Assembly (NCBI GenBank): GCA_019054805.1
Contig: JAHQIY010000031.1
Location: 372,001-436,000 of the forward strand
Source: Brachionus manjavacas
Lineage: Eukaryota > Rotifera > Eurotatoria > Ploima > Brachionidae
Reading direction: 5' to 3'
Length of the DNA stretch: 64,000 nucleotides
Shown one piece after another: positions 13,130-49,575 of the stretch. Numbering within the stretch: position 1 is the stretch's first letter; every line of letters begins with the position of its first letter. Under the pieces are notes generated by a model, which was not told where the DNA came from, ran no database searches, and saw only the letters and a program-made list of their open reading frames with translations. Position numbers and translations under genes: made by a program.

Positions 13130-13275
13130 ACCATTCTCATTAACTTTCTTAAAATTTTTATCGACTTCTTGAGCTAAATTATATTTATTTGATTTAATTT
13201 GGCTCAATTTTTAAAAAAAAATATCTGCAGATACTCTTTTAATCTTAATTGATTTAAAAATAGCAATGAACAAAA
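13130..13275 (+). repeat. 146-bp target-site duplication, left copy
   Basis: Starts ACCATTCTCATTAACTTTC and ends TAGCAATGAACAAAA. An equal-length copy lies at 13884-14029 with 4 mismatches by eye (about 97% identity). The two copies exactly bracket a truncated LINE, so the whole 146 bp is read as the target-site duplication. Confidence 0.88.
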
Positions 13276-13883
13276 CTACCTTAAAATTCTAGCACATAAA
13301 TCGTGGCGACTCTGAATAGAGACACTTAAGTAAATCTATTTTGCACTAGTCAGATCAGTCATTGAATATTCGTCTCTCATTTTTCCTAGAATAGCAAAAT
13401 CTAATATTAAAAAACTACAGAGAATACAAAACTGTGCAATTAAGTAATTTATAAACTTAATTATCGGGAAAATGCGGCCGACATTAATCGAAGGTCGAGT
13501 ATTGAATTATTAAATGATAGGGCTAAAATTCTTAATGGTAATTACATTAATGAGTCTCTAGAAAACAAAAATCCATTAATTTCAGATTTAGTTAAAGAAT
13601 ATAAAAATTTTAAAGGAAGTAGAAAGCTCAATTTTAAAACAATTTTATGTGACCAAAATTTGCCATAAATAAAGAAATTTTAGAGGTTATAGTTCTTGTA
13701 ATTATTCTAAATTTTTCATTCTTTTTTTTATTTATTTTTATATATTTTTTTTTTTTTTCTAACCTTGTATTTAGGCGATTTTATTTTTGAAATGTAGAGA
13801 TGTATTTTGATTAATTTTTTTCTCCAGTTTGGCAAAGGAGCGCAAGCTCGAGCCAATTTAATTTATAAATAAAACGTTTACCT
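13276..13883 (+). mobile_element. LINE-C: 5'-truncated non-LTR retrotransposon
   Basis: 608 bp. The first part encodes, with one or two frameshifts, the C-terminal end of a non-LTR RT: VIEYSSLIFPRIAKSNIKKL, then INRRSSIELLNDRAKILNG and ISDLVKEYKNF, ending at about 13,667. This parallels SQ-KKLQAIQNSAVRSIP and VERLVKEYKEGFESR of LINE-A at 54 kb, so it is a relative of LINE-A. A 200-bp T-rich UTR follows, ending GCAAGCTCGAGCC and AATTTATAAATAAAA. Confidence 0.85.
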
Positions 13884-14029
13884 ACCATTCTCATTGATTT
13901 TCTTAAAATTTTTATCGACTTCTTGAGCTAAATTATATTTGTTTGATTTAATTTGGCTCAATTTTTAAAAAAAAATACCTGCAGATACTCTTTTAATCTT
14001 AATTGATTTAAAAATAGCAATGAACAAAA
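13884..14029 (+). repeat. 146-bp target-site duplication, right copy
   Basis: Right-hand member of the pair flanking LINE-C; same length as the left copy. Confidence 0.88.
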
Positions 14030-36983: not shown

Positions 36984-37365
36984 ATTTTATCAATAGATTG
37001 AGAAAAAAAATTTTTTATTTTATTAATTTACATAGCATGTAAACTATGTTACATTAAAATTTTTTAAATTAATTCAAAGATTTTTTTTAATATCTAATGT
37101 TAAACTTTTTGAATTGAAATGATATTTTGAATTGATCATCAACTTCAAGATGCCTAAAAATCATCTAAATTAAAATCAAATGCTAAAACTGGCCGATAAA
37201 TAATCTTTAAAGAAATTAAAATTAGTTGAAATTGGAGTAAACAAATTTTTAAAAAATGAATTTTTTAATTAATTTTAATAAAACCAAATTATTTTATTAT
37301 TCATTATGCAATTCTTTTAGGACCTGTTGGTTCGCGGTTAAAGCATAAAATGGAAAAAACAGATT

Positions 37366-37531
37366 ATTTATTTTTTTTATTATTTCTGTTTTCTGTACCT
37401 AGCTATGGCTCCTTCAGAATAAATTTAAAAATTCAAAATAAAAATAAAAAATTAAATTAAAGGTAATAAAATGAGATAAAAAAAATCAAAATAAAGTAAA
37501 TAAGCAAAAAAAAAAAATGAAAGTTTAGAAG
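37366..37531 (-). mobile_element. 5'-truncated LINE-A tail
   Basis: Inverted LINE-A 3' terminus (TTCTGTACCTAGCTATGGCT on the plus strand) plus A-rich UTR inverse. No coding part. Confidence 0.85.
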
Positions 37532-37868
37532 ACATAGATATCAAATTATAAAGATAAAATTATGGAAAATGGAAATGGACTTCGATTTAAAACTTTATAC
37601 AGTCAACAAAAGATTATTCGAAATTTTTTTATCCGGAATCAAGTTTCGGGCCAGCAATTTTTGATTTTTGCTTTGAGCTTTTTAGCTTCCTTCTTTTTAG
37701 GCTTTGAGCTAATTAGAACAGCAATACTAACGTATTACTTCCTGTTAAAACTTAAAATATAGACATAAACGATGGAAGTAATTCTCTTAATAAAGATTCT
37801 GATCAAATAATATGATCAAATTTAGAAAAATTAAGGGACTTTAAAGCCATCAAAATACCTCTCTTCCA

Positions 37869-40060
37869 ATGTTCAAACAAGGAAGCAAATCAAGCGCGTT
37901 TCAGAATCCGACGATTCACAAACAGCAGAATAGAAAAAAATTAAAGACCAAGCCAATGACAAAGATAACAGTGAACTTAATGACATATTTCAAGACAATA
38001 ATTTTGGACCGACTTCAAATGGAAACAATACCGATTTTATACAACAACAGTCTTACTCAAATAAACAATGAAAAAACATCAATCAAGTCAACTTTCCTCT
38101 AAGAACAGGTTAGGAATTACACACTGGAATTGCCTTCACCCAGTAGGGTTCATCTCTAAGGAAATTTTTTAGCTCAAAAATTTCCCGACATTGTTTTGCT
38201 CAATGAATTAAAGATAGATTTGAGTGAGGCAAATATTAATCTTGTTTTTATGAATTTTCAGTTTGTAGCAAAACCACGCAACAAGTCTGGAGGAGGCTAT
38301 TTTAATTAAGGAAGGAATTGAATTTATACAAGATTTTTCTTATGAGGAATTCAATTCCGAACTGCTTTGTATAAAATTATATTTGGGAAAGAATAATGAA
38401 TTAGTTGTTTTTTGTCTTTATAATCCATCCAATGTTCTTCTGAACTTTGAGCTTTTTAAAACAAATAATAATAAATGAAAAAACTACATTTTAGGTGGTG
38501 ATCAAAACGCTTAAGAAAGCAAATAGGCTGCGTAGGGGAAAATGAAAATGGAATAATGCTGAAAAGAATAATTAATGAGCTAGACTTTTCAGTAATCAAT
38601 GATAAGCGCCTACTTTTTATATTTACAAAAGGAATTACTTTGAAATTCTTGATCTTTTTTTAGTTTCAACTTCATTAATTGACAAAATTACCGACTTCAA
38701 TGTCTTAAATAGTCAAGACATGACTAGTGACCATTTCCAAATCGAAGCATCAATTTCTATGGGCTATTAATTAAAAAATAAATCTACAGCTAAAAACTTA
38801 ACTTTAAGAAAGCAAACTGTCAATTCTTTAGCGAGATTTTTAAATTCTCAAATAGTTATTTTCCCTGAAAGATCCATCACTATAGATCAACTAAATGATA
38901 AAATTAAAGAAAAAAATTTCTGCTACTCATAAAAGCATTCCTTATCTTTTTCAGAAAATCTACAAAACCAGTCTTCCCCCGAACATTGTTATTCTGATAA
39001 AAGAACGCAAGAAAGTAAGAAGAAACTTTCAAAAAACTCGCTGTCTAAAGTTCAAGCAAAAATTTAAATCAACTGACATTTGAATTAAAAGTCTCTTTAT
39101 AAAAATTCTGGAATCAAAATTGGTTTGATTTTATCAAGAAGATGAGAAAAAACCCACTGACAAGTAGACCTTTTTGAAAAAAATTAATAAATTTAAGAAC
39201 AAAAAAAGGATCAAATTTAATCCCAAATTTGTTTATAAATGACAAGGAATTCAAAACTATTGAAGAAAAGGGAAAATGCTTTGAAGAACTCTTATATTCT
39301 ATATTTAGTCCTAATTCTGATTTAATAGATCTTGATAAAGATTTCGAAATACTAAATTCTAACTCTTAATTCTTTAGAAATTATTATCAGTCTAATTTTA
39401 ATGATCCAATTTGCTTAAATGAATAAATTATGGCTCTAAAAAGATTGAAAAATGAAGCGGCATCAGGACCTGACCAAATTCATAATCTAATGTTAAAAAA
39501 CTTACCTAGAAATTCATTAATAGAAATTAAAGAACTTTTTAATTTATCTCTTCGAGAAGGTAGAGTCCCTTAAGCACGGAAAACATCGAACATTACTATG
39601 ATTCAAAAAAAGGCCTCTACTGTACAAGATCCTTTAAATTAAAGACCAATTAGCATTACGAGTTGTCTGGGAAAGTTACTGGAAAGAATACTATACTCAA
39701 GATTAAACAATTTTTTGGAACAAAATTTACTCCTTATCCAGGAGCAGTCTGGATTTAGAAAACAACGGCGAACATCAGATAATCTTTTCTTTTTAATTCA
39801 AAAAATTGTGGAATCATTTAATAGAAAAAAAAGAGTTTGCGGCCTGTTTTTTGATATTTGTAAAGCCTTTGATAGGGTTTGGCATGTAGGTTTACTTTTT
39901 AAATTGATTAAATTGAATCCACCTCAGTACTTGACCAACTGGATTAGGTCCTTTATAGATTCTAGGAGATTCAAGGTAAATGTGAATGATCACCTAAGCG
40001 ACGAATATCAAATAACTGCAGGTGTTTCTCAAGGCTCAGTTATTAGTCCTCCTTTTTTAG
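37869..40060 (+). mobile_element. LINE-A copy 1 (5' part, up to the LINE-U insertion)
   Basis: Starts in Gln/Asn-rich ORF1-like sequence (DNNFGPTSNGNNTDF in one frame), then a decayed APE endonuclease from about 38,115 (HWNCLHPVGFISK, GGG in CSGGG-like position, LGGDQNA for the GDFN motif, TSDHFQIEAS for the SDH motif). The RT follows, up to motif B (FDICKAFDRVWH, AGVSQGSVISPP) and is cut at 40060 by LINE-U. Many in-frame stops. Segment 38435-40060 is repeated at 45743-47372 on the far side of LINE-U. Confidence 0.88.
38435..40060 (+). repeat. About 1.63-kb direct repeat flanking LINE-U, left copy
   Basis: Starts TTCTTCTGAACTTTGAGCTT. Its left edge coincides with the beginning of the right-hand copy next to LINE-U, and its right edge abuts the LINE-U 3' end. 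Identity with the right copy is nearly complete, including shared stop codons, except between about 39,270 and 39,650. Confidence 0.85.
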
Positions 40061-40075
40061 CATAGTAGTAGTTTA

Positions 40076-40121
40076 TTTCAATCGAAGAGACTAGTGTCGA
40101 TCCCAGATGGGTCGATTGAAA
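40076..40121 (-). other. 3' stem-loop of LINE-U
   Basis: Inverted repeat TTTCAATCGA / TCGATTGAAA around a 26-base loop, about 15 bases from the element's 3' end. LINE RTs often recognise such a 3' hairpin when priming; that role is inferred here. Confidence 0.6.
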
Positions 40122-40170
40122 GTAAATTAAAATAAAGATAAAATAAAAATAAATTGTTCAAATAAAGTTT

Positions 40171-43156
40171 TCAAAAATAATAATAGTATGGTTTATAATT
40201 TAAATCAAATTTTTGAAAAAGTTTGCTGAATTTAATAAACATTGGCCCAATTGTTTCTTCAATACTACGTTTGAAATTGTTAGGTCTTGCTCCAAGCTTA
40301 TCTATTAAAAAAAGGTTAATGAATTTCGAATAAAAATACCCAAATGTATTTTCACCAAAATCATTGAATTTTCCTTTGGATGGTATAGCGAAATGAGATT
40401 TGTTTCTTAAATCCATTTGGGTTTGTTTGATTGAATGATTTTTCACAAATACTGACTTGAGATTTGAAGGCGAATTGTTGGAATCAAAAATTTTGTGGAT
40501 GAATACAGATAGTTTTTTGATTACACGATGTTGAAAACAATCTAAGTTGAATTTATTGAGCGTAATATTTAGTTCGTTAAAGTCATCCAGTTTAGCAACA
40601 TTAAACCGAATATTTAGCAATTTAAGAAGGGTATAGTAGTACGTATTTGCTAATTTTTGCAATGCCCTTTTTGGGAAATAGATAAGAATTGACATACAGT
40701 AGTCGAAGTGAGGTAATATGAAAGATTTATAAAACTGCAGCCTCACTCTATGAGACAAGTAGAATAAACGATTGATCGAGTAAATGCGCTTATTGATGGA
40801 TTTTCGAAGGTCAGCTACATAATTGATGAATGTAAGTTTGTTGTCAATCGTAACGCCAAGTAGTTTGAAGTGATTAACAACTTCTACTTCATTGTTTCCT
40901 ATCACTATCGAGTTTGGGATTGCGCAGTTTTTCTTATTCGAGATAAACATTATTTTTGTTTTGTTCCAATTAATGTCTATTCGATTAAATCTACACCATG
41001 ATATTAGCTTCTGAATTGACCTGTTAAAGTCCTCAAATAAGTTTGACAATATTTGCCCAGTTTTTAGAATTGTGGTATCATCGGCAAATAGTTTGACCAT
41101 AAAATCATTTAAATAGCTAACAATGTCATTTATGAATATAAGAAATAGAAGCGGCCCAAGTACACTCCCTTGAGGAACCCCAAGTCTAATATTTTGTGGA
41201 CCTGAGGTACTATCACCGATCTTAACATATTGTATGCGATTTGTAAAATAGGACTTGAGGAGATCAATCGCAGAATCTGATAATCCATAACGCTTGAGTT
41301 TAGTTAACAATAACTTCGATTCAACTGAGTCAAAGGCCTTCTTGAAGTCAATGAATAAAATAAGTCCGATTAGGCGTTTACTTTTGATTTCATTCATTTT
41401 CGAGATTATTTCGTGTAGGGCTGACTCACAACTGTGATTTAATCGGAATCCATGTTGTTCGTTCGATATGCATTCGTTTAAATCGAGATATGAGAGCAGT
41501 TGTTTGTGTAATAACTTTTCGAATAGTTTTGCAATCGGGGGAAGAATAGATATGCCCCTATAGTTATTTATGTCCTCGGCACTACCTTTATTTTTGTAGA
41601 GTGGAGTAACTACAGCAGTTTTCCATTCAGCCGGAATAGTACAACTAATGATTGAATAGTTAAAAAGATATGCAATTATAGTTTTAAGTTTTGATGATGG
41701 TAGTTTAAATATTTTGGTTGGGATGCCACTACAACCTTGCGCACTGGAAGATTGCACGTCAGATAGTAATTTATTTATTTCGTTCGAATTTGTAAGACTA
41801 AATTTGAAATTATTTTCTTTTTTTACTTCACTGATAGGGATGACTCTTTCAATAAACTCCATGGATTCGTCCAAGGTTGAATCAGAAGATGATGAGATTG
41901 ACGTAAAAAAACAGTTGAATATGTTTGATAACTCGTTTTTGTTGTCAAAAACTTGGCCATCTAATTTTATGTGACTAATTGGGTTCTTTTCGCTTTTGTC
42001 GGATTTTATATTAATTTTTGAACTGTAGAACTCCCAAAACTTTTTGGAGTTTTTGAAATCATTTAGGGACTTATCTTTGAAGTATTCGATAAGTTTTTGA
42101 TCATTGTAATCTTTGAAAAGCTTGTTGTAATATTCATATATATCTTTGTCGTTTTGATCAAGTGTTCTTTTAGACCTTTTATATGCCGAGTCTTTAAGAT
42201 GTTTCAGTTTGATCAATTCATCATCGTACCAAGGAAAATACGAGCTATTTTTAATTTTTACAATTCGTTCTGGAGCTATTCGATCGATTACATTTAAGAT
42301 TTCACCTTTAACAAAGTGCCATTTCTCATCAATACTTTTAAGTGATTGGAGTGGTTTGAAATTGGCTTTTTCAATTTGTGAACTGATTTCAAGTTGGTTC
42401 GACTGGCAAAGGTTTCTACATTTAATTGTTTTGTACGTTTCATTTGGTTTTTTAATTAGTAAGCTTGCTACGACGAAATTATGATCACTGAATGGGCATG
42501 GAATAACATCAGTTTCTTCTATCAAATTTCCGTTATGAAGTAATAAGTCTATTAGGGTTGATGTTGTTTTGGTTTTGTTTGTTTTTTTGTAGTACTTGGA
42601 AGATTCTCTAGTCGGTTTGTGAATAAAATTTATTAGATCATTACTTGTACAAAAATCAGTAATGTTGGAGGTGAGCTTTGGGTCATAGTTCATATTTAAA
42701 TCTCCAAAGATAAAAAAGTGGTTCAGACAAGTTCAGAATATGTATAAAATCATCCAATTTATCTAGAAAATCTTTTTCTTTTGTATTGGGTGGTCGGTAA
42801 CAATATGCAAAATTAAATCTTTGACTATTAATTTTAAATTGGGTGTAAATAAGTTCTAGTTCATCAACAAGAATAGTTTTTGTTACGGACAATCCATATT
42901 TTATAAAAACCAGTAGACCGCCACCGTGTCTCGTTCTGTCCAGTCTTATTTTATTATAATGGTTATTTTTAAAGAATGTGTTAGGAATCGTTTCATCAAG
43001 TTTTGTTTCACTAAAACAAACAAAATCAAATTTTTTTGAGTTAAGTATTTCGTTTACTTCATATAGGTTATTTAGGATTGAATTAATATTTAAGTGTAGT
43101 GCTTGAAAGTTGGAGCTTGATTTATTAAAGTTTAAAAGTTCGTTTAAATATTTCAT
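40171..43156 (-). pseudogene. LINE-U ORF2: APE endonuclease + reverse transcriptase
   Basis: Met at 43156 (MKYLNELLNFNKSSS). Endonuclease: LHLNINSI (Asn), VCFSETKLDE (Glu), RLDRTRHGGGLLVF, FAYCYRPPN, then a one-base shift in a T run near 42,705 turns the expected GDLN motif into LWRF; the other frame reads FGDLNMNYDP, with CPFSDHNFVV (Asp-His). A linker of about 200 residues follows. RT: NNYRGISILPPIAKLFEKLL, NEQHGFRLNHSCESAL, LFIDFKKAFDSVES, LGVPQGSVLGPLLFLIFIND, LFADDTTIL (catalytic FADD), then a CR1/L2/Jockey-like C-terminal domain ending at 40171. Length about 995 codons, typical of APE LINEs. The single frameshift may be genuine or a homopolymer sequence error. Confidence 0.92.
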
Positions 43157-43189
43157 TCTTTTGCAGTTTTCGAGTGGTTGGATTAATTG

Positions 43190-45601
43190 TCAGTTGGATG
43201 TTGGGATTGGATTGATCTCACCATTTCTAATTTCACTTTCTATTTCAATTCTTTTTATGGGGATATCGTTCTGTGAAAAGTTGAAACCAACATTAAAAGC
43301 AATATACTTTGCAAAGAGGCAGACAAATACACCGCAGTCGTTATAATTCCCAGTTTGTTTTGGGTGATTTTGGTCGTTTACAACTTTCCAATGATTGGCA
43401 CTTTTAAGCTGCAGCATTTATTTTGATAGTATAGTGCTGATTTTTACTACAAGTTCAAAATCAATCAGGTATAAAGAATCATAAAGAGCCCAGTGATTCG
43501 TCTTTATAAATAATGGGAACAAAATAATATCGAAATTAAGTTTTTTGTATTTTTCTAAACTTTTTGGAAGTCCTCTGTGGTCAAGTGATAAAATTTTATG
43601 TATAAGAATTGAATCGATGACTTCAATCTTTGCTGAAGTTTTTGATGAGTTGCTAATTATTTTCATATAGCAATTAACGATTTTATCATTTAAACGCGCT
43701 CCAGATACAAGTGAATAGATGTCTGACATATCTATTGTAAAGCCATAAGCTGTGATGGTAGTCGGATCAAGTTGTGTAGGTTGATTGATACTAACATCAG
43801 TTTCCTGAGTAGGGTAGATCTTCATACAAGAAAAAGAATTATAACATTGGGTGTCCATTGATGTCGTGCTTGTCGTTTGAACAAAGATTTGACTTGATGC
43901 TATTGGAGCTGAAATCAAAACTTGACTCGAATTTGATTCTATTGGATTCGGGTTCAAGTGATTTGGACCTTTTTGGATTGAACCTGGGACAGGCTTCGGA
44001 TTGGTCTTGGTAATCTCAGTGCCAATCGGTGTTGTGCTTGGCAGCTGCTTTAAAACTTGACTTGGTTCAGAGTCATTTGGAGTCTGAGTCAAGTGATTTG
44101 GATCATTTTGGATTGGAATTGGGACAGGCTTCGGATTGGTCTTGGTACTCACAGTGCCAATCGGTGTTGTACTTGGCCGCTGATTCGAAGCTTGGATTGG
44201 TTTGGATTTTACTGGATTCAAACACAGACGTTTTGGATCTTTTGGAATTGCACAAGGGGCAGGCTTTGGATTGGTCTTGGTAATCTCAGTGTTATTTGAT
44301 GTTGTGTTTGACGGCTTATTCAAGGCATGGCTTGGTTTGGGTTTAATTGAATTCAGACTCACACGTTTTGGATCTTTTAGGATTGGACCTGGGACAGGCT
44401 TCGGATTGATGTTGGTAATCCCAGTGCCATTTGGTGTTATGTTTAGCCGGTTATTCAAAGTCTGGCTTGGTTTGGATTTTACTGAATTCAAACTCAAACG
44501 TTTTGGATCTTTTGGAATTGCACAAGGGGCAAGCTTTGGGTTGGTCTTGGTAATCTCAGTGTTAATTGATGTTGTGTTTGACGGCTTATTCAAGGCATGG
44601 CTTGGTTTGGGTTTAATTGAATTCAGACTCACACGTTTTGGATCTTTTAGAATTGGACCTGGGACAGGCTTCGGATTGATGTTGGTAACCACAGCGCCAA
44701 TTGGTGTTGTGCTTGGCAACTAATTTGAAACTTGACTTGGTTCAGAGCGATTTGGAGTCGGGTTCAAATTATTTGGAACTTTTTGGATTGAACCATGAAC
44801 AGGCTTCGGATTGATGTTGGTAACCTCAGCGCCAATTGGTGTTGTTTTTGGCAGCTGATTTGAAACTTGACTTGGTTCAGAGCCATTTGGAGTCGGGTTC
44901 GAATGATTTGGATCTTTTTTGATAGGACCTGGGACAGGCTTCAGATTGGTCTTGGTACTCTCAGTGCCAATCGGTGTTGTGCTTGGCAGCTGATTCAGGA
45001 CTTTCGGGTAATTGAGGCATTTTTTGCTCGTGCGTCTTTTCGCACTCGAAATTCTTTGGTATTTGGTTAGATGTTGATTGATGTAAACGAATTCAAAACC
45101 TTTTAATTTTCTTAAAATTTTTGCATTCTTTAGAACATGGTGAACATGCCAACTGCTTTCTAGTTCACAAACAATAGGTCTTGGGTAACTTGAATCGCTA
45201 TTGTAATTATCTATTCGATTAAATTGCAACGGGTATTGTTGATTCATTTTGTTAAATAGAAAACGAATAGCAGAATGGTCGCGTCCATTCTCTGGGAGAC
45301 CGATTATTATAACAAAATTTTCGCGTTCATATCGTGTATTGAATTCATCGGTTATTAATTCTAATATTTCGAGTTTGAACTTTTCGCTTAGTTCTGGGAT
45401 ATTTTGATTAATGTCGTTTAATTTAGTTCGCTCGAGTTTTTTTTTGAGTGCTTCTTGATCGTCTTGAAATACGAATGAAAAAAAAGAAAGAATTTTACTT
45501 ACCTTATTTTCAATGAATCCAAGTTTAGATTTTAATTCATGGTCATCAAGGTCAAGCGTAGTTTTTTTTGTATCAATTGTCATTTTATTAAGGAGAAACA
45601 A
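43190..45601 (-). pseudogene. LINE-U ORF1: repeat-rich protein with C-terminal ULP1-like protease
   Basis: About 800 codons in one frame with two in-frame stops (TAG at 44720, where neighbouring repeats have Gln CAG; TAA at 43418). Domains: a coiled-coil N-terminus and a globular part (FVIIIGLPENGRDHSAIRFL, resembling L1-type RNA-binding ORF1), then about eight tandem Pro/Thr/Lys-rich repeats of about 47 residues (NQLPSTTPIGTESTKTNLKP as the type). Next a C48 protease: YSLVSGARLNDKIVNCYMK (substrate groove LND), IKTNHWALYDSLYLIDF (catalytic His, Asp) and QTGNYNDCGVFVCLFAKYIA (Gln, Cys). It ends at 43190, 31 bases before ORF2. ULP1-type domains are known in a few LINEs (NeSL), which have a different endonuclease. 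The triad residues look intact. Confidence 0.85.
43900..45030 (-). repeat. Tandem 47-codon repeats in LINE-U ORF1
   Basis: About eight units of about 141 bp, anchored by TNPKPVPGPI and SEPSQV, alternating between two subtypes (KDPKRVSLNSIKPKPSHALN and KDPNHLNPTPN). Alternation implies duplication of a two-unit block. All units stay in frame, so length change without frameshift has been tolerated. Confidence 0.85.
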
Positions 45602-45742
45602 TCGATTAGCGCTAAAGTTTGTTTTAAAACGGTAGTTAACGACGATTTTGATCTCAATAGAGATTATTATAATTTATTATAATTTTTAAAATTTCAATTT
45701 AAATTTCGTGTATAATTATTCTTTTTTTTTTTTTTTTTTTTT

Positions 45743-47372
45743 TTCTTCTGAACTTTGAGCTTTTTAAAACAAATAATAATAAATGAAAAAACTACATTTT
45801 AGGTGGTGATCAAAACGCTTAAGAAAGCAAATAGGCTGCGTAGGGGAAAATGAAAATGGAATAATGCTGAAAAGAATAATTAATGAGCTAGACTTTTCAG
45901 TAATCAATGATAAGCGCCTACTTTTTATATTTACAAAAGGAATTACTTTGAAATTCTTGATCTTTTTTTAGTTTCAACTTCATTAATTGACAAAATTACC
46001 GACTTCAATGTCTTAAATAGTCAAGACATGACTAGTGACCATTTCCAAATCGAAGCATCAATTTCTATGGGCTATTAATTAAAAAATAAATCTACAGCTA
46101 AAAACTTAACTTTAAGAAAGCAAACTGTCAATTCTTTAGCGAGATTTTTAAATTCTCAAATAGTTATTTTCCCTGAAAGATCCATCACTATAGATCAACT
46201 AAATGATAAAATTAAAGAAAAAAAAAATTTCTGCTACTCATAAAAGCATTCCTTATCTTTTTCAGAAAATCTACAAAACCAGTCTTCCCCCGAACATTGT
46301 TATTCTGATAAAAGAACGCAAGAAAGTAAGAAGAAACTTTCAAAAAACTCGCTGTCTAAAGTTCAAGCAAAAATTTAAATCAACTGACATTTGAATTAAA
46401 AGTCTCTTTATAAAAATTCTGGAATCAAAATTGGTTTGATTTTATCAAGAAGATGAGAAAAAACCCACTGACAAGTAGACCTTTTTGAAAAAAATTAATA
46501 AATTTAAGAACAAAAAAAGGATCAAATTTAATCCCAAATTTGTTTATAAATGACAAGGAATTCAAAACTATTGAAGAAAAGGGAAAATGCTTTGAAGAAC
46601 TTTTATCTTCAATATTTAGTCCTAACTCTGATTTAATTGATACTAAGAAAGACTTCGAAATACTAAATTCTAACTGTGATTTTTTTAGAAAAAATAATCA
46701 CTGTAATTTTAATGATCCAATTTGTATAAATGAATTAATTATGGCTTTAAAAAGATTGAAAAATGAAGCGGCATCAGGACCTGACCAAATTCATTATCTA
46801 ATGTTAAAAAACTTACCTAGAAATTCATTAATAGAAATTATTGAACTTTTTAATTTATCTCTTCGAGAAGGTAGAGTCCCTAAAGCATGGAATACATCGA
46901 ACATTACTATGATTCAAAAAAAAGCCTCTTCTTTACAAGATCCTTTAAATTAAAGACCAATTAGCATAACGAGTTGTCTGGGAAAGTTACTGGAAAGAAT
47001 ACTATACTCAAGATTAAACAATTTTTTGGAACAAAATTTACTCCTTATCCAGGAGCAGTCTGGATTTAGAAAACACCGGCGAACATCAGATAATCTTTTC
47101 TTTTTAATTCAAAAAATTGTGGAATCATTTAATAGAAAAAAAAGAGTTTGCGGCCTGTTTTTTGATATTTGTAAAGCCTTTGATAGGGTTTGGCATGTAG
47201 GTTTACTTTTTAAATTGATTAAATTGAATCCACCTCAGTACTTGACCAACTGGATTAGGTCCTTTATAGATTCTAGGAGATTCAAGGTAAATGTGAATGA
47301 TCACCTAAGCGACGAATATCAAATAACTGCAGGTGTTTCTCAAGGCTCAGTTATTAGTCCTCCTTTATTTAG
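45743..47372 (+). repeat. About 1.63-kb direct repeat flanking LINE-U, right copy
   Basis: Begins immediately after the LINE-U 5' T-run. In the 46,590-46,950 section this copy differs from the left one at many positions and lacks several of its stop codons. Confidence 0.85.
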
Positions 47373-47827
47373 TAAATATATTAATGACATCTCCAAAAGA
47401 AATAAAACAAATAATGAATACTCTCTGCTTTTCGCAAATGATCTAGTTACATTCTTCATTTATAACAAAAAAGGGAACCTTGAAAATAAGATAAATTAAT
47501 ACACCAACGAACTAATCCATTGGTAGTTAGACTGGTGGAGGAATACAAAGAAGGTTTCGAATCAAGATTTTTTGAATACCCAACTCCATTGTGTAATTGC
47601 TACCTTACAATTTCTTCTTTTTTCCCTGAACAATCAATTTTTTAAAATATGTATCCTTTAACTCTCTAGTTCAATTTCATTAATTTTCCTTTATTTTAAA
47701 CCAGTTAATTACATTTTATTTTTTTTAATTTTTATTCTATCTTATTAACTATTTTATTTTGATTTTTTTTTTTTAATCTGAAGGGCTTTTGCTCGGTAGA
47801 GAAAACAAATAAACAAATAAAAATAAA
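45743..47827 (+). mobile_element. LINE-A copy 2 (continuation after LINE-U)
   Basis: Repeats 38435-40060 and then continues with the rest of LINE-A: RT motif B, SLLFANDLVTFF (catalytic FADD changed to FAND), an internal deletion from about 47,500 that removes most of the C-terminal domain, EEYKEGFESR, YPTPLCNCYLTISSFFPE, UTR and the tail GGGCTTTTGCTCGGTAGAGA. With copy 1 it rebuilds one LINE-A, so these are two halves of the same element overlapping by 1.63 kb. Confidence 0.88.
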
Positions 47828-47835
47828 GTAATTCT

Positions 47836-48230
47836 GTTATTCGCATTTAAAATGACAAGACCTATGTATCAAGTCCCTGAAGTGTCGTCACGTGATTAAC
47901 ACACTGTCAATTCGTGATGAAAATTATTTGAAATTTTACATTTAGGTGCCGACCCTAAATGCAGTGGTAACAAACAACATTTTGCGCACGGCATTAGTTT
48001 TATTCTTGTATAACTAGTTACAATTTTAAATAAGAAACATATTTATTTTTTCTCTCTATAAAATTATTATTTGTTCTCTCTCTTTTATATTTAACATACT
48101 AAGCGTTTGCCACAGAGTGGCCACTTTCTATTTTAGATTTCAATAAATTATTAAACAGCATAAGCTTATTTTATTTATTTATTTAATAAATAAAGAGAAA
48201 AACCAAATATTTTTCAGTCCCTCAGCCTTG
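47836..48230 (+). mobile_element. Possible LTR or leader of an LTR retrotransposon
   Basis: No coding frame. It has a TATA-like CTTTTATATTTAAC, an AATAAA-type signal (TTCAATAAATTATTAAACAG) and is followed by integrase-derived sequence. No second LTR is visible, so this is tentative. Confidence 0.25.
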
Positions 48231-48234
48231 CAAG

Positions 48235-48870
48235 ATGCTAGTAAAAAAGTTATTGATACTACGATTGCAAAACGCAGGAAGGTTGTTCTTAACTTTTTTC
48301 AACGGGAGGAGATCATCACTAAGAACAAGAATGGGTACTGCCCAAAAAACTTGCGCTAGATTAAATGGTTGGCTTCACTACAATTTATTACATTATCGCC
48401 AAAGGTTCAGCAGAACTAAGCAAATTCAGAAACGATAATCCAAGTGTGCGATCAGATGCACATTTTAGACTTCAAGCTATCCGCTATTAGACGAAGCACT
48501 CACTTAATTGTTTCTTTGTTCGAAAAAAACACTCTAAATCAATTAACACTGTGTTTACCCCTCTTTTCGCGTATAACATCGCCGTTCATGCTAGTACAGG
48601 TTTTACACCATTTGAAATTGTTTTCGGTATTAAACCAAGAATTCCGTTGGACTTATATAAGTATGTAAAAATGTTGATGAATTATTTTTAAGTAGAAATG
48701 AAGATGCTAATTTTGTTACATTTGATAATCATGAAGCACCTTTGAATATTAAAATTTCACACGATGTTATTTATTTCTGTAAAGACCAAGAAATTTAATT
48801 TCAAAATATATATGATAAAGCACGATATTTGTCCATGCGAGCACAACATGACTCCCCCCTTTATTAAGAG
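48235..48870 (+). pseudogene. LTR-retrotransposon integrase remnant
   Basis: Between stops and shifts it reads FAYNIAVHASTGFTPFEIVF then GIKPRIPLDLYK, the conserved end of a Gypsy-class integrase core (AYN...H.STG.TPFE..FG..P). The tail is RNEDANFVTFDNHEAPL and DKARYLSMRAQ. Upstream, about 48,235-48,420, an unassigned frame reads KKVIDTTIAKRRKVVLNFFQ. Heavily decayed. Confidence 0.6.
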
Positions 48871-48959
48871 TCGCTCCGAAGCTCGAAAAAAAAGAAAAAA
48901 ATAACAATTTTAAATTAAACTTTAAACAATAAAATTTAACAACATTATTTTAATTATTT

Positions 48960-49575
48960 TTTTTAAAGCAGCTACCTAATACCAAAACAGCAATTAAGAC
49001 AGATGCTAAATTTTAAAATGGAATTTCCTCATGTCTGGCATCCTCAAAGTACTAAGAATCTTCAAATATGATCAACTAAATTTTTACTCAAAATTATCAT
49101 TTATTACATCACTTAAATTCAATTAAATTCAATAATGTTCATTTTTTAATTTAAATTTATCTTCCCTACTTGAGGGAGTAAATTGGCTTAAAATGGAGAT
49201 GAAGCGGCATCTCTGCCTCCGTGATGGTGTCTCTGACTCAATTGAACTGTGTTTGAACAACATAAGATTTAAAAACTATAGAATTTTATTAAACCAACTT
49301 ATTGAACCTAATTGAGACTCACCTTTCTTGGTCAACTAAATTTTACTAAACTTAAACTGTAAATTCTTTTTCTTTCCTTTTTCTATTTTTATTTTTTTTT
49401 ATTTTTTTTTTGACTACTTATTTTATCTATTTACTTATTTTATGTATCGAGCATGAGCTCTTTCATGAGTATCAGAACTTAATTGACTTTTTTACATTAA
49501 TTTAAATTCTAATTTTTTTTATCTTTACTTTACTTCTTCTGAAGGAGGTTAATTATAAATTTATAAATAAATAAA
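48960..49575 (+). mobile_element. LINE-B 3' end, 5'-truncated
   Basis: Frameshifted remnant of the LINE-B C-terminus (FKYDQLNFYSKLSFITSLK; compare LFNFDELYLFSKLTFIDTIK at 52.5 kb), then a UTR ending TTCTGAAGGAGGTTAATTAT and AAATAAATAAA. Confidence 0.8.

Follow-up and report, generated by a model that had tools for sequence, protein, structure and literature searches.

Long interspersed nuclear elements (LINEs) usually leave target-site duplications of 10-20 bp, and the 126 bp of R9, an element of a bdelloid rotifer, has been called quite distant (PMC6895275). Hebe, another bdelloid rotifer LINE, has three intact copies with duplications of 7-12 bp (PMC2861651). Much longer ones were produced by human L1 in XPA-, XPC- or XPD-deficient cells, where the range was 5 bp to 5.3 kb with a median of 1495 bp. 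Complemented cells had a median of only 14 bp and a range of 2 bp to 1.6 kb; in HeLa cells those above 100 bp never exceeded 10%, and for the long ones the authors propose a distal, unrelated second nick (PMC5223499). Extremely long duplications were also seen in HeLa at 5'-truncated L1 copies (Gilbert et al. as cited in PMC2912911), while six of six full-length insertions had 10-17 bp (PMC2912911). Here we describe LINE-U, a 5.66-kb non-LTR (long terminal repeat) retrotransposon in a 64,000-nucleotide stretch of the genome of the rotifer Brachionus manjavacas (C31:372001-436000, hereafter the window). It lies between direct repeats of 1.63 kb, which are very probably its target-site duplication, produced in one event with the second break kilobases away.

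LINE-U occupies positions 40061 to 45721 on the minus strand. Its 3' end is at 40061 and its 5' end at about 45721, the latter placed by comparison with a second copy on C3 (labels C1, C2, C3 and so on denote contigs of the same assembly, the window lying on C31). The segment to its left (38435-40060), part of a decayed, 5'-truncated copy of another LINE, LINE-A, recurs to its right (45743-47372) as a plus/plus direct repeat with 97.7% identity over 1630 columns of a pairwise alignment, as the original prediction had it. The repeat edges had also been placed exactly at the LINE-U ends; the left edge is indeed flush with the 3' end, but at the 5' end a run of 21 T (45722-45742; A21 in the LINE sense), a junction filler, comes before the right copy. 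LINE-A, on the plus strand, continues outward only from each outer edge, as predicted: leftward at 38100-38434 and rightward at 47373-47824, where it reaches its 3' end. When we rebuilt the empty site by joining 37000-40060 to 47373-49000 and searched the genome (114 Mb, 61 contigs, AT-rich), it gave a single alignment across both edges at 10 of 10 LINE-A loci, which indicates that the repeat is a duplicated target.

The two copies were, as predicted, already decayed when they were duplicated. At 136 positions both deviate alike from the majority of the 10 LINE-A loci, so they were formerly one old sequence. Of 34 substitutions between them, 33 fall within a patch at 39291-39657 (46602-46968 in the right copy) that differs by about 9%, a clustering never reached in 20000 random placements. 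The remaining one is at 39765, so that outside the patch the copies have 1 substitution in about 1.26 kb, together with one 3-base and one 1-base length difference. Since they are near-identical outside the patch and yet about 10% diverged from other LINE-A, the duplication is much younger than LINE-A. Judged from sequence, the likeliest origin of the patch is conversion or template switching that involved another LINE-A. Over its 367 bp the left copy has 17 differences from the LINE-A majority and the right copy 26; the right-copy patch has its best other match at C31:334737-335116 (97%) and the left-copy patch is 96% identical to several LINE-A copies, so that the foreign patch could sit in either.

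The other near-full-length LINE-U, the only one among the matches listed (best 40 of 41 candidates), is at C3:1843994-1849265. The original prediction had named ordinary duplications of 5-20 bp at other LINE-U insertions as a finding that would refute it; this one has a duplication of 2.26 kb, on another contig and in another target. Its left copy is 2264 bp (C3:1849264-1851527) and its right copy 2293 bp (C3:1841650-1843942). The target consists of a fragment of another LINE family, represented on C17, plus further DNA, and a genome-wide search for the part of it not common to other repeats gave only those two places among the best 40 of 102 candidates. The repeat again directly abuts the 3' end of LINE-U; at the 5' end, where the run of 21 T is absent, 51 bp of filler intervene. 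Together with the opening 5 nt of the repeat, the last 11 nt of this filler make up a 16-nt stretch that matches inside the target (E 2e-4). These copies carry a patch too: in one of them a 442-bp piece of LINE-U, matching the element of the same locus at 99.8%, stands in place of 429 bp of target, with an 18-nt stutter at the entry edge. Outside it they differ by 4 substitutions in about 1.83 kb and by 9 gap columns. As far as can be read from sequence, the fillers and patches point to an end-joining process that switches templates.

We searched the genome with the ORF2 (open reading frame 2) protein, which matched at least 58 stretches (best 53 of 5531 candidates), and examined the flanks at 21 loci of the clade, both LINE-U copies among them. 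Clean duplications were found at five of the 21: those of the window (1626 bp) and C3 (2264 bp), one of 697 bp around a full-length relative on C8 (copies 98.7% identical), and two at truncated relatives, C6:3259802 (102 bp, 100% identity) and C9:3038230 (copies of 144 and 161 bp). The kilobase scale was found in the clade at full-length insertions, the two 5'-truncated relatives having only 0.1-0.16 kb. A further full-length relative, at C23:744091, stands in an array of the form T-LINE-T-LINE-T. Here T measures about 3.2 kb, with an upper limit of 3.28 kb set by the start of ORF1; one copy directly follows each of the two LINE 3' ends and a third stands at the left edge. The copies of T are 99.0-99.4% identical and include what by eye is part of a transporter-like gene. 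The targets differ: LINE-A in the window, the C17-family LINE and other DNA on C3, part of a transporter-like gene on C23. Kilobase target-site duplication is recurrent in this LINE clade and extreme in size, a conclusion these loci support.

LINE-A itself, an abundant element whose copies are 96-99% identical in the six pairs compared, behaves differently in the copies tested. Comparison of the 5' flank (4.8 kb) with the 3' flank (0.48 kb) of a full-length LINE-A gave no direct repeat. The 3' flanks of three more copies had no second copy near their own locus among the matches listed. For two of these (L016, L020) the 5' terminus of the element was not observed, the sequence past the 3' end belongs to a dispersed repeat, and scoring covered the best 40 of 83 and the best 40 of 53 candidates; for the third (L022) it covered all 8. 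L017 was excluded from these controls, its 5' flank having been compared over only 170 bp. A duplication is thus present at 4 of 4 full-length loci of the LINE-U clade and 0 of 4 LINE-A (Fisher p 0.029, a small and post hoc comparison that counts the C23 array and leaves out a locus at C31:164184, described below), and long duplication is not simply a habit of the host. The prediction had regarded long duplications as a possible general property of the replication machinery, citing others of 60, 62 and 146 bp. The last of these was found (13130-13275/13884-14029); no exact 60 or 62 bp pair was. The window also has duplications of 65 bp (29002-29066/30693-30757) and 98 bp (2969-3066/3235-3329) at short insertions from other LINEs. 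The remaining 7 of the 10 LINE fragments tested in the window showed no duplication within 2.5 kb. Other LINEs here do make duplications of 65-146 bp, but the kilobase scale was found in the LINE-U clade. The element with the clean 146-bp duplication (13130-14029) is a truncated LINE of 608 bp.

Several results weigh against this interpretation. Around a full-length relative at C31:164184 the duplication, of about 0.7 kb, is not clean, its right copy starting about 103 bp past the LINE 3' end, within a 1.77-kb tandem array. Ten of the 21 loci (C10, C20, C32, C2, C1, C3:5618012, C6:756605, C26, C14 and C12) lack a repeat in the flanks compared, weak or AT-rich matches aside. Each of these is either 5'-incomplete in the ORF2 search or carries stops; five (C32, C2, C1, C3:5618012 and C6:756605) are stop-free in the matched part, so that age is not the only reason for the absence and some young-looking truncated copies lack a long duplication. 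C13, C17 and C3:5125095 are tandem or complex loci with no clean duplication. Clean kilobase-scale cases number three, plus one array, and at C8 and C23 no second copy fixes the LINE 5' end independently; that of C8, 161 bp ahead of the first open frame, is set solely by the repeat edge. Longer inserts do not have significantly longer duplications (rho 0.64, p 0.086, n=8; some of the lengths are approximate). Finally, we infer the distance between the two breaks and did not observe it.

Four candidates were dropped in the course of this survey. On C17 an apparent 3.8-kb duplication was reinterpreted as a head-to-tail array of LINEs, its repeated stretch having an ORF with a C48 protease match; the array of related LINEs (C17:674490-690000; L033, L034) is 99.9% identical over 4.2 kb and includes a segment of about 590 bp that ends in a LINE 3' end, with a 52-bp repeat flanking at its start. 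At C3:5125095/5135642 the duplication is a 10.5-kb tandem one whose edges are unlike LINE ends. This region (C3:5122626-5143186; L029, L030, L067; 99.2%) contains a LINE with a stop-free ORF2 and, by eye, a zinc-finger-like start and an adjoining MULE-like element. The 95-bp repeat at C6:832700 includes the LINE's own 3' tail and is ambiguous, and C13 is a complex locus. On C31, the tandem array of 1774 bp (C31:160200-164053; L055; 99.4%) starts at about the 3' end of the full-length LINE-U relative there.

LINE-U is coded on the minus strand throughout. The reverse transcriptase part of ORF2 (40171-42732) matches RVT_1 with 112 bits, above the cut-off of 29.6, and is separated by a frameshift from the endonuclease part (42683-43189), in which the Exo_endo_phos (EEP) match reaches 19.7 bits, under the cut-off of 24.5, at the site where the frame is broken. 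The same domain scores 40.2 bits in the C31 relative and 34.3 bits in that of C23, both above the cut-off, and 22.9 bits, just under it, in that of C8. With the reverse transcriptase in LINE-U and the endonuclease above cut-off in two of three relatives, the clade can be assigned, on domain matches, to the EEP-type non-LTR retrotransposons; presumably LINE-U resembles the CR1/L2-like group. ORF1 is parted by one in-frame stop into an N-terminal piece (44720-45673) and a C-terminal piece (43418-44719), the latter with a weak match to Ulp1/C48 peptidase (19.9 bits, cut-off 20.7). This C48 domain is clear in C8 (70.7 bits) and C23 (64.8 bits), and an ORF1 piece of the C31 relative has no Pfam match. 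Within ORF1, tandem repeats stand ahead of the protease domain, of 135 bp in 7.8 copies in LINE-U (43941-44997) and of 84 bp in the C23 relative (L059 3385-4567). The 5' leaders of the C31 LINE (L056) and of LINE-A (L065 from 4813) look similar by eye, GTCGTTTGGCTTAGCAAATTT ... TCACGTGA, and perhaps represent a shared promoter. Elsewhere in the window an inverted repeat (21014-21596/21860-22433; 587 columns, 96.6%) with short internal tandem repeats is a possible palindromic DNA transposon.

The 3' ends of the clade are alike in structure. Nine of nine fold into a hairpin directly ahead of a short, mostly A/T-rich tail; in LINE-U it lies at 40066-40121 on the minus strand. In the alignment of the nine ends, 98.8% of the 81 cells of the outer 9-bp stem are paired, against only 12-57% in slid versions of it. 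The stem is kept with compensatory changes: five of its nine pairs have changed on both sides, which was matched by 9 of 500 shuffles, and 12 cells show a two-sided change, which was reached by none of 500. Further pair types in the outer stem gave no excess over shuffles (323/500). This conservation supports genuine 3' ends that would be recognised as RNA. The target just past the 3' end is, by eye, A-rich in the window, C3, C9 and C23 and less so at C8 and C6, as for an endonuclease that nicks at T-rich sites.

A scheme that accommodates these observations would begin with the element's endonuclease nicking one strand at a T-rich site, from which the LINE RNA, its 3' end recognised via the conserved hairpin, would be reverse-transcribed by target priming. 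The other strand would then be broken 0.7-3 kb onward rather than 10-20 bp, more likely in the same duplex, or alternatively on the sister chromatid, and the stretch between the two breaks would thereby come to be present on both flanks. The end of the cDNA would be joined to the distant break by error-prone end joining that uses microhomology, adds filler and jumps templates; polymerase-theta end joining is an example of such microhomology-using, template-switching joining. We propose tentatively, at a little under even confidence, that this LINE lineage, with an EEP endonuclease and an Ulp1/C48-type protease domain in ORF1, has an element-specific mode of integration in which the second strand breaks kilobases from the first nick upon completion of a full-length copy, the LINE being born with LTR-like repeats of host DNA. 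Once in place, the long repeats would behave like LTRs: unequal exchange between them could build T-LINE-T-LINE-T arrays such as that seen at C23, and the other product of such an exchange would be an exact empty site, from which the LINE is removed without trace. Such removal may help to explain why only two near-full-length LINE-U occur among the matches listed. Loss of host nucleotide excision repair was considered as a cause and set aside. XPA_C (91.1 bits) and Rad4 (XPC; 70 bits) are both present over cut-off in open frames, so that simple loss of these does not explain the duplications; ERCC1, XPF and XPD were not searched for.

The strongest alternative, bridging between sister chromatids or homologs, is a sub-case of the core reading, with the same outcome and a different place for the second break, so that our confidence in the two overlaps. 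The cDNA from one chromatid would be joined to an independent break elsewhere on the other, leaving the LINE at the junction of a tandem duplication; such an origin has been put forward for an L1-linked one of 22.6 Mb in a tumour (PMC7058536). It would require no kilobases of unwinding, a broad range of sizes suits independent breaks, and patches that differ between copies would suit two templates. The four full-length sizes, from 0.7 to about 3.2 kb, differ however by less than fivefold and show no megabase spread, the copies are near-identical outside the patches at the window and C3, with no sign of two diverged homologs, and the four LINE-A copies tested in the same genome show no duplication. 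We regard bridging as a serious but rather doubtful candidate.

An RNA-templated origin is improbable. Here the reverse transcriptase would jump from the LINE-U 5' end to the poly(A) of an antisense transcript of the target, so that one repeat is cDNA, whose end might then be resolved through homology with the chromosome. The window does read, in the LINE sense, target, A21, LINE-U 5' end, as a poly(A) tail predicts, and the patches resemble template jumps; the 5' junctions at C3 and C8, however, have no A-run, no canonical polyadenylation signal was seen by eye beside 38435, and neither intron loss nor another mark of RNA was noticed between the copies. There is very little to be said for an older tandem duplication hit at its junction by LINE-U, or for later recombination: tandem arrays near LINEs do occur in this genome, but the same coincidence of edges would be needed at the window, C3, C8 and C23, in unrelated targets. 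Equally slight is the chance of an assembly error, to which long repeats are prone, since the loci are independent, on four contigs, and each pair has its own patch, filler or small differences, which speaks against a copied stretch of assembly. Taken with the window, the 2.26 kb at C3 and the 697 bp and about 3.2 kb of the relatives leave very little likelihood for an assembly error or for a tandem duplication of independent origin. That the repeats are the LTRs of an LTR retrotransposon can be dismissed: although direct repeats of 0.7-3 kb flush with a reverse transcriptase element look the part, they are target DNA, LINE-A in the window and other DNA at C3, no terminal repeat is common to the elements (both LINE-U repeats differ, and those of C8 and C31 are mutually unrelated), and the element has a reverse transcriptase and its relatives an EEP endonuclease.

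Target-site duplication by a distant second break, the reading we prefer, has its closest likeness in L1 of excision-repair-deficient cells, where LINE insertion also gives kilobase duplications. That study concerned marked L1 in cultured cells (PMC5223499), whereas here one LINE clade does so at full-length copies, in a natural genome with XPA and Rad4/XPC domains. With L1 in HeLa the clade shares extremely long duplications at some insertions, but the relation is reversed, its kilobase ones standing at full-length copies (PMC2912911). The tumour case likewise places a LINE at the junction of a direct tandem duplication; it is somatic and 22.6 Mb long, whereas those of the LINE-U clade are recurrent, in an assembled genome and of 0.7-3.2 kb (PMC7058536). 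Hebe is, like LINE-U, a non-LTR retrotransposon of a small invertebrate and differs in its duplications of 7-12 bp (PMC2861651). R9 resembles LINE-U in having an unusually long duplication (PMC6895275) but is, by the title of its own paper, specific to ribosomal DNA (rDNA), whereas LINE-U targets vary and its two duplications are 13-18 times longer. The possibility that LINE-U is an R9-like, rDNA-specific element was rejected on its clade's targets, namely LINE-A, the C17-family LINE with other DNA, and the part of a transporter-like gene. R9 carries a restriction-like endonuclease. In the literature searched, mainly titles and abstract openings with few subscription journals, no natural LINE family was described as making kilobase duplications. 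What is known is kilobase LINE duplication chiefly in excision-repair-deficient human cells; what appears new here is its occurrence in a natural LINE lineage, at full-length copies.

The cutting and joining of the second strand is the poorly understood half of LINE insertion (PMC6895275). A natural lineage in which the second break falls repeatedly at 0.7-3 kb offers a natural equivalent of the human cells that lack this repair. Its full-length and truncated copies, compared within one genome, make the second-strand question testable. Annotation that seeks duplications of 5-30 bp would label such insertions duplication-free, or as LTR elements. On landing, these LINEs duplicate segments of their host, such as the part of a transporter-like gene (identified by eye) at C23. 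If an element-specific mode of integration is indeed at work, they would also be open to traceless removal by recombination, and host sequence would be multiplied as T-LINE-T-LINE-T arrays.

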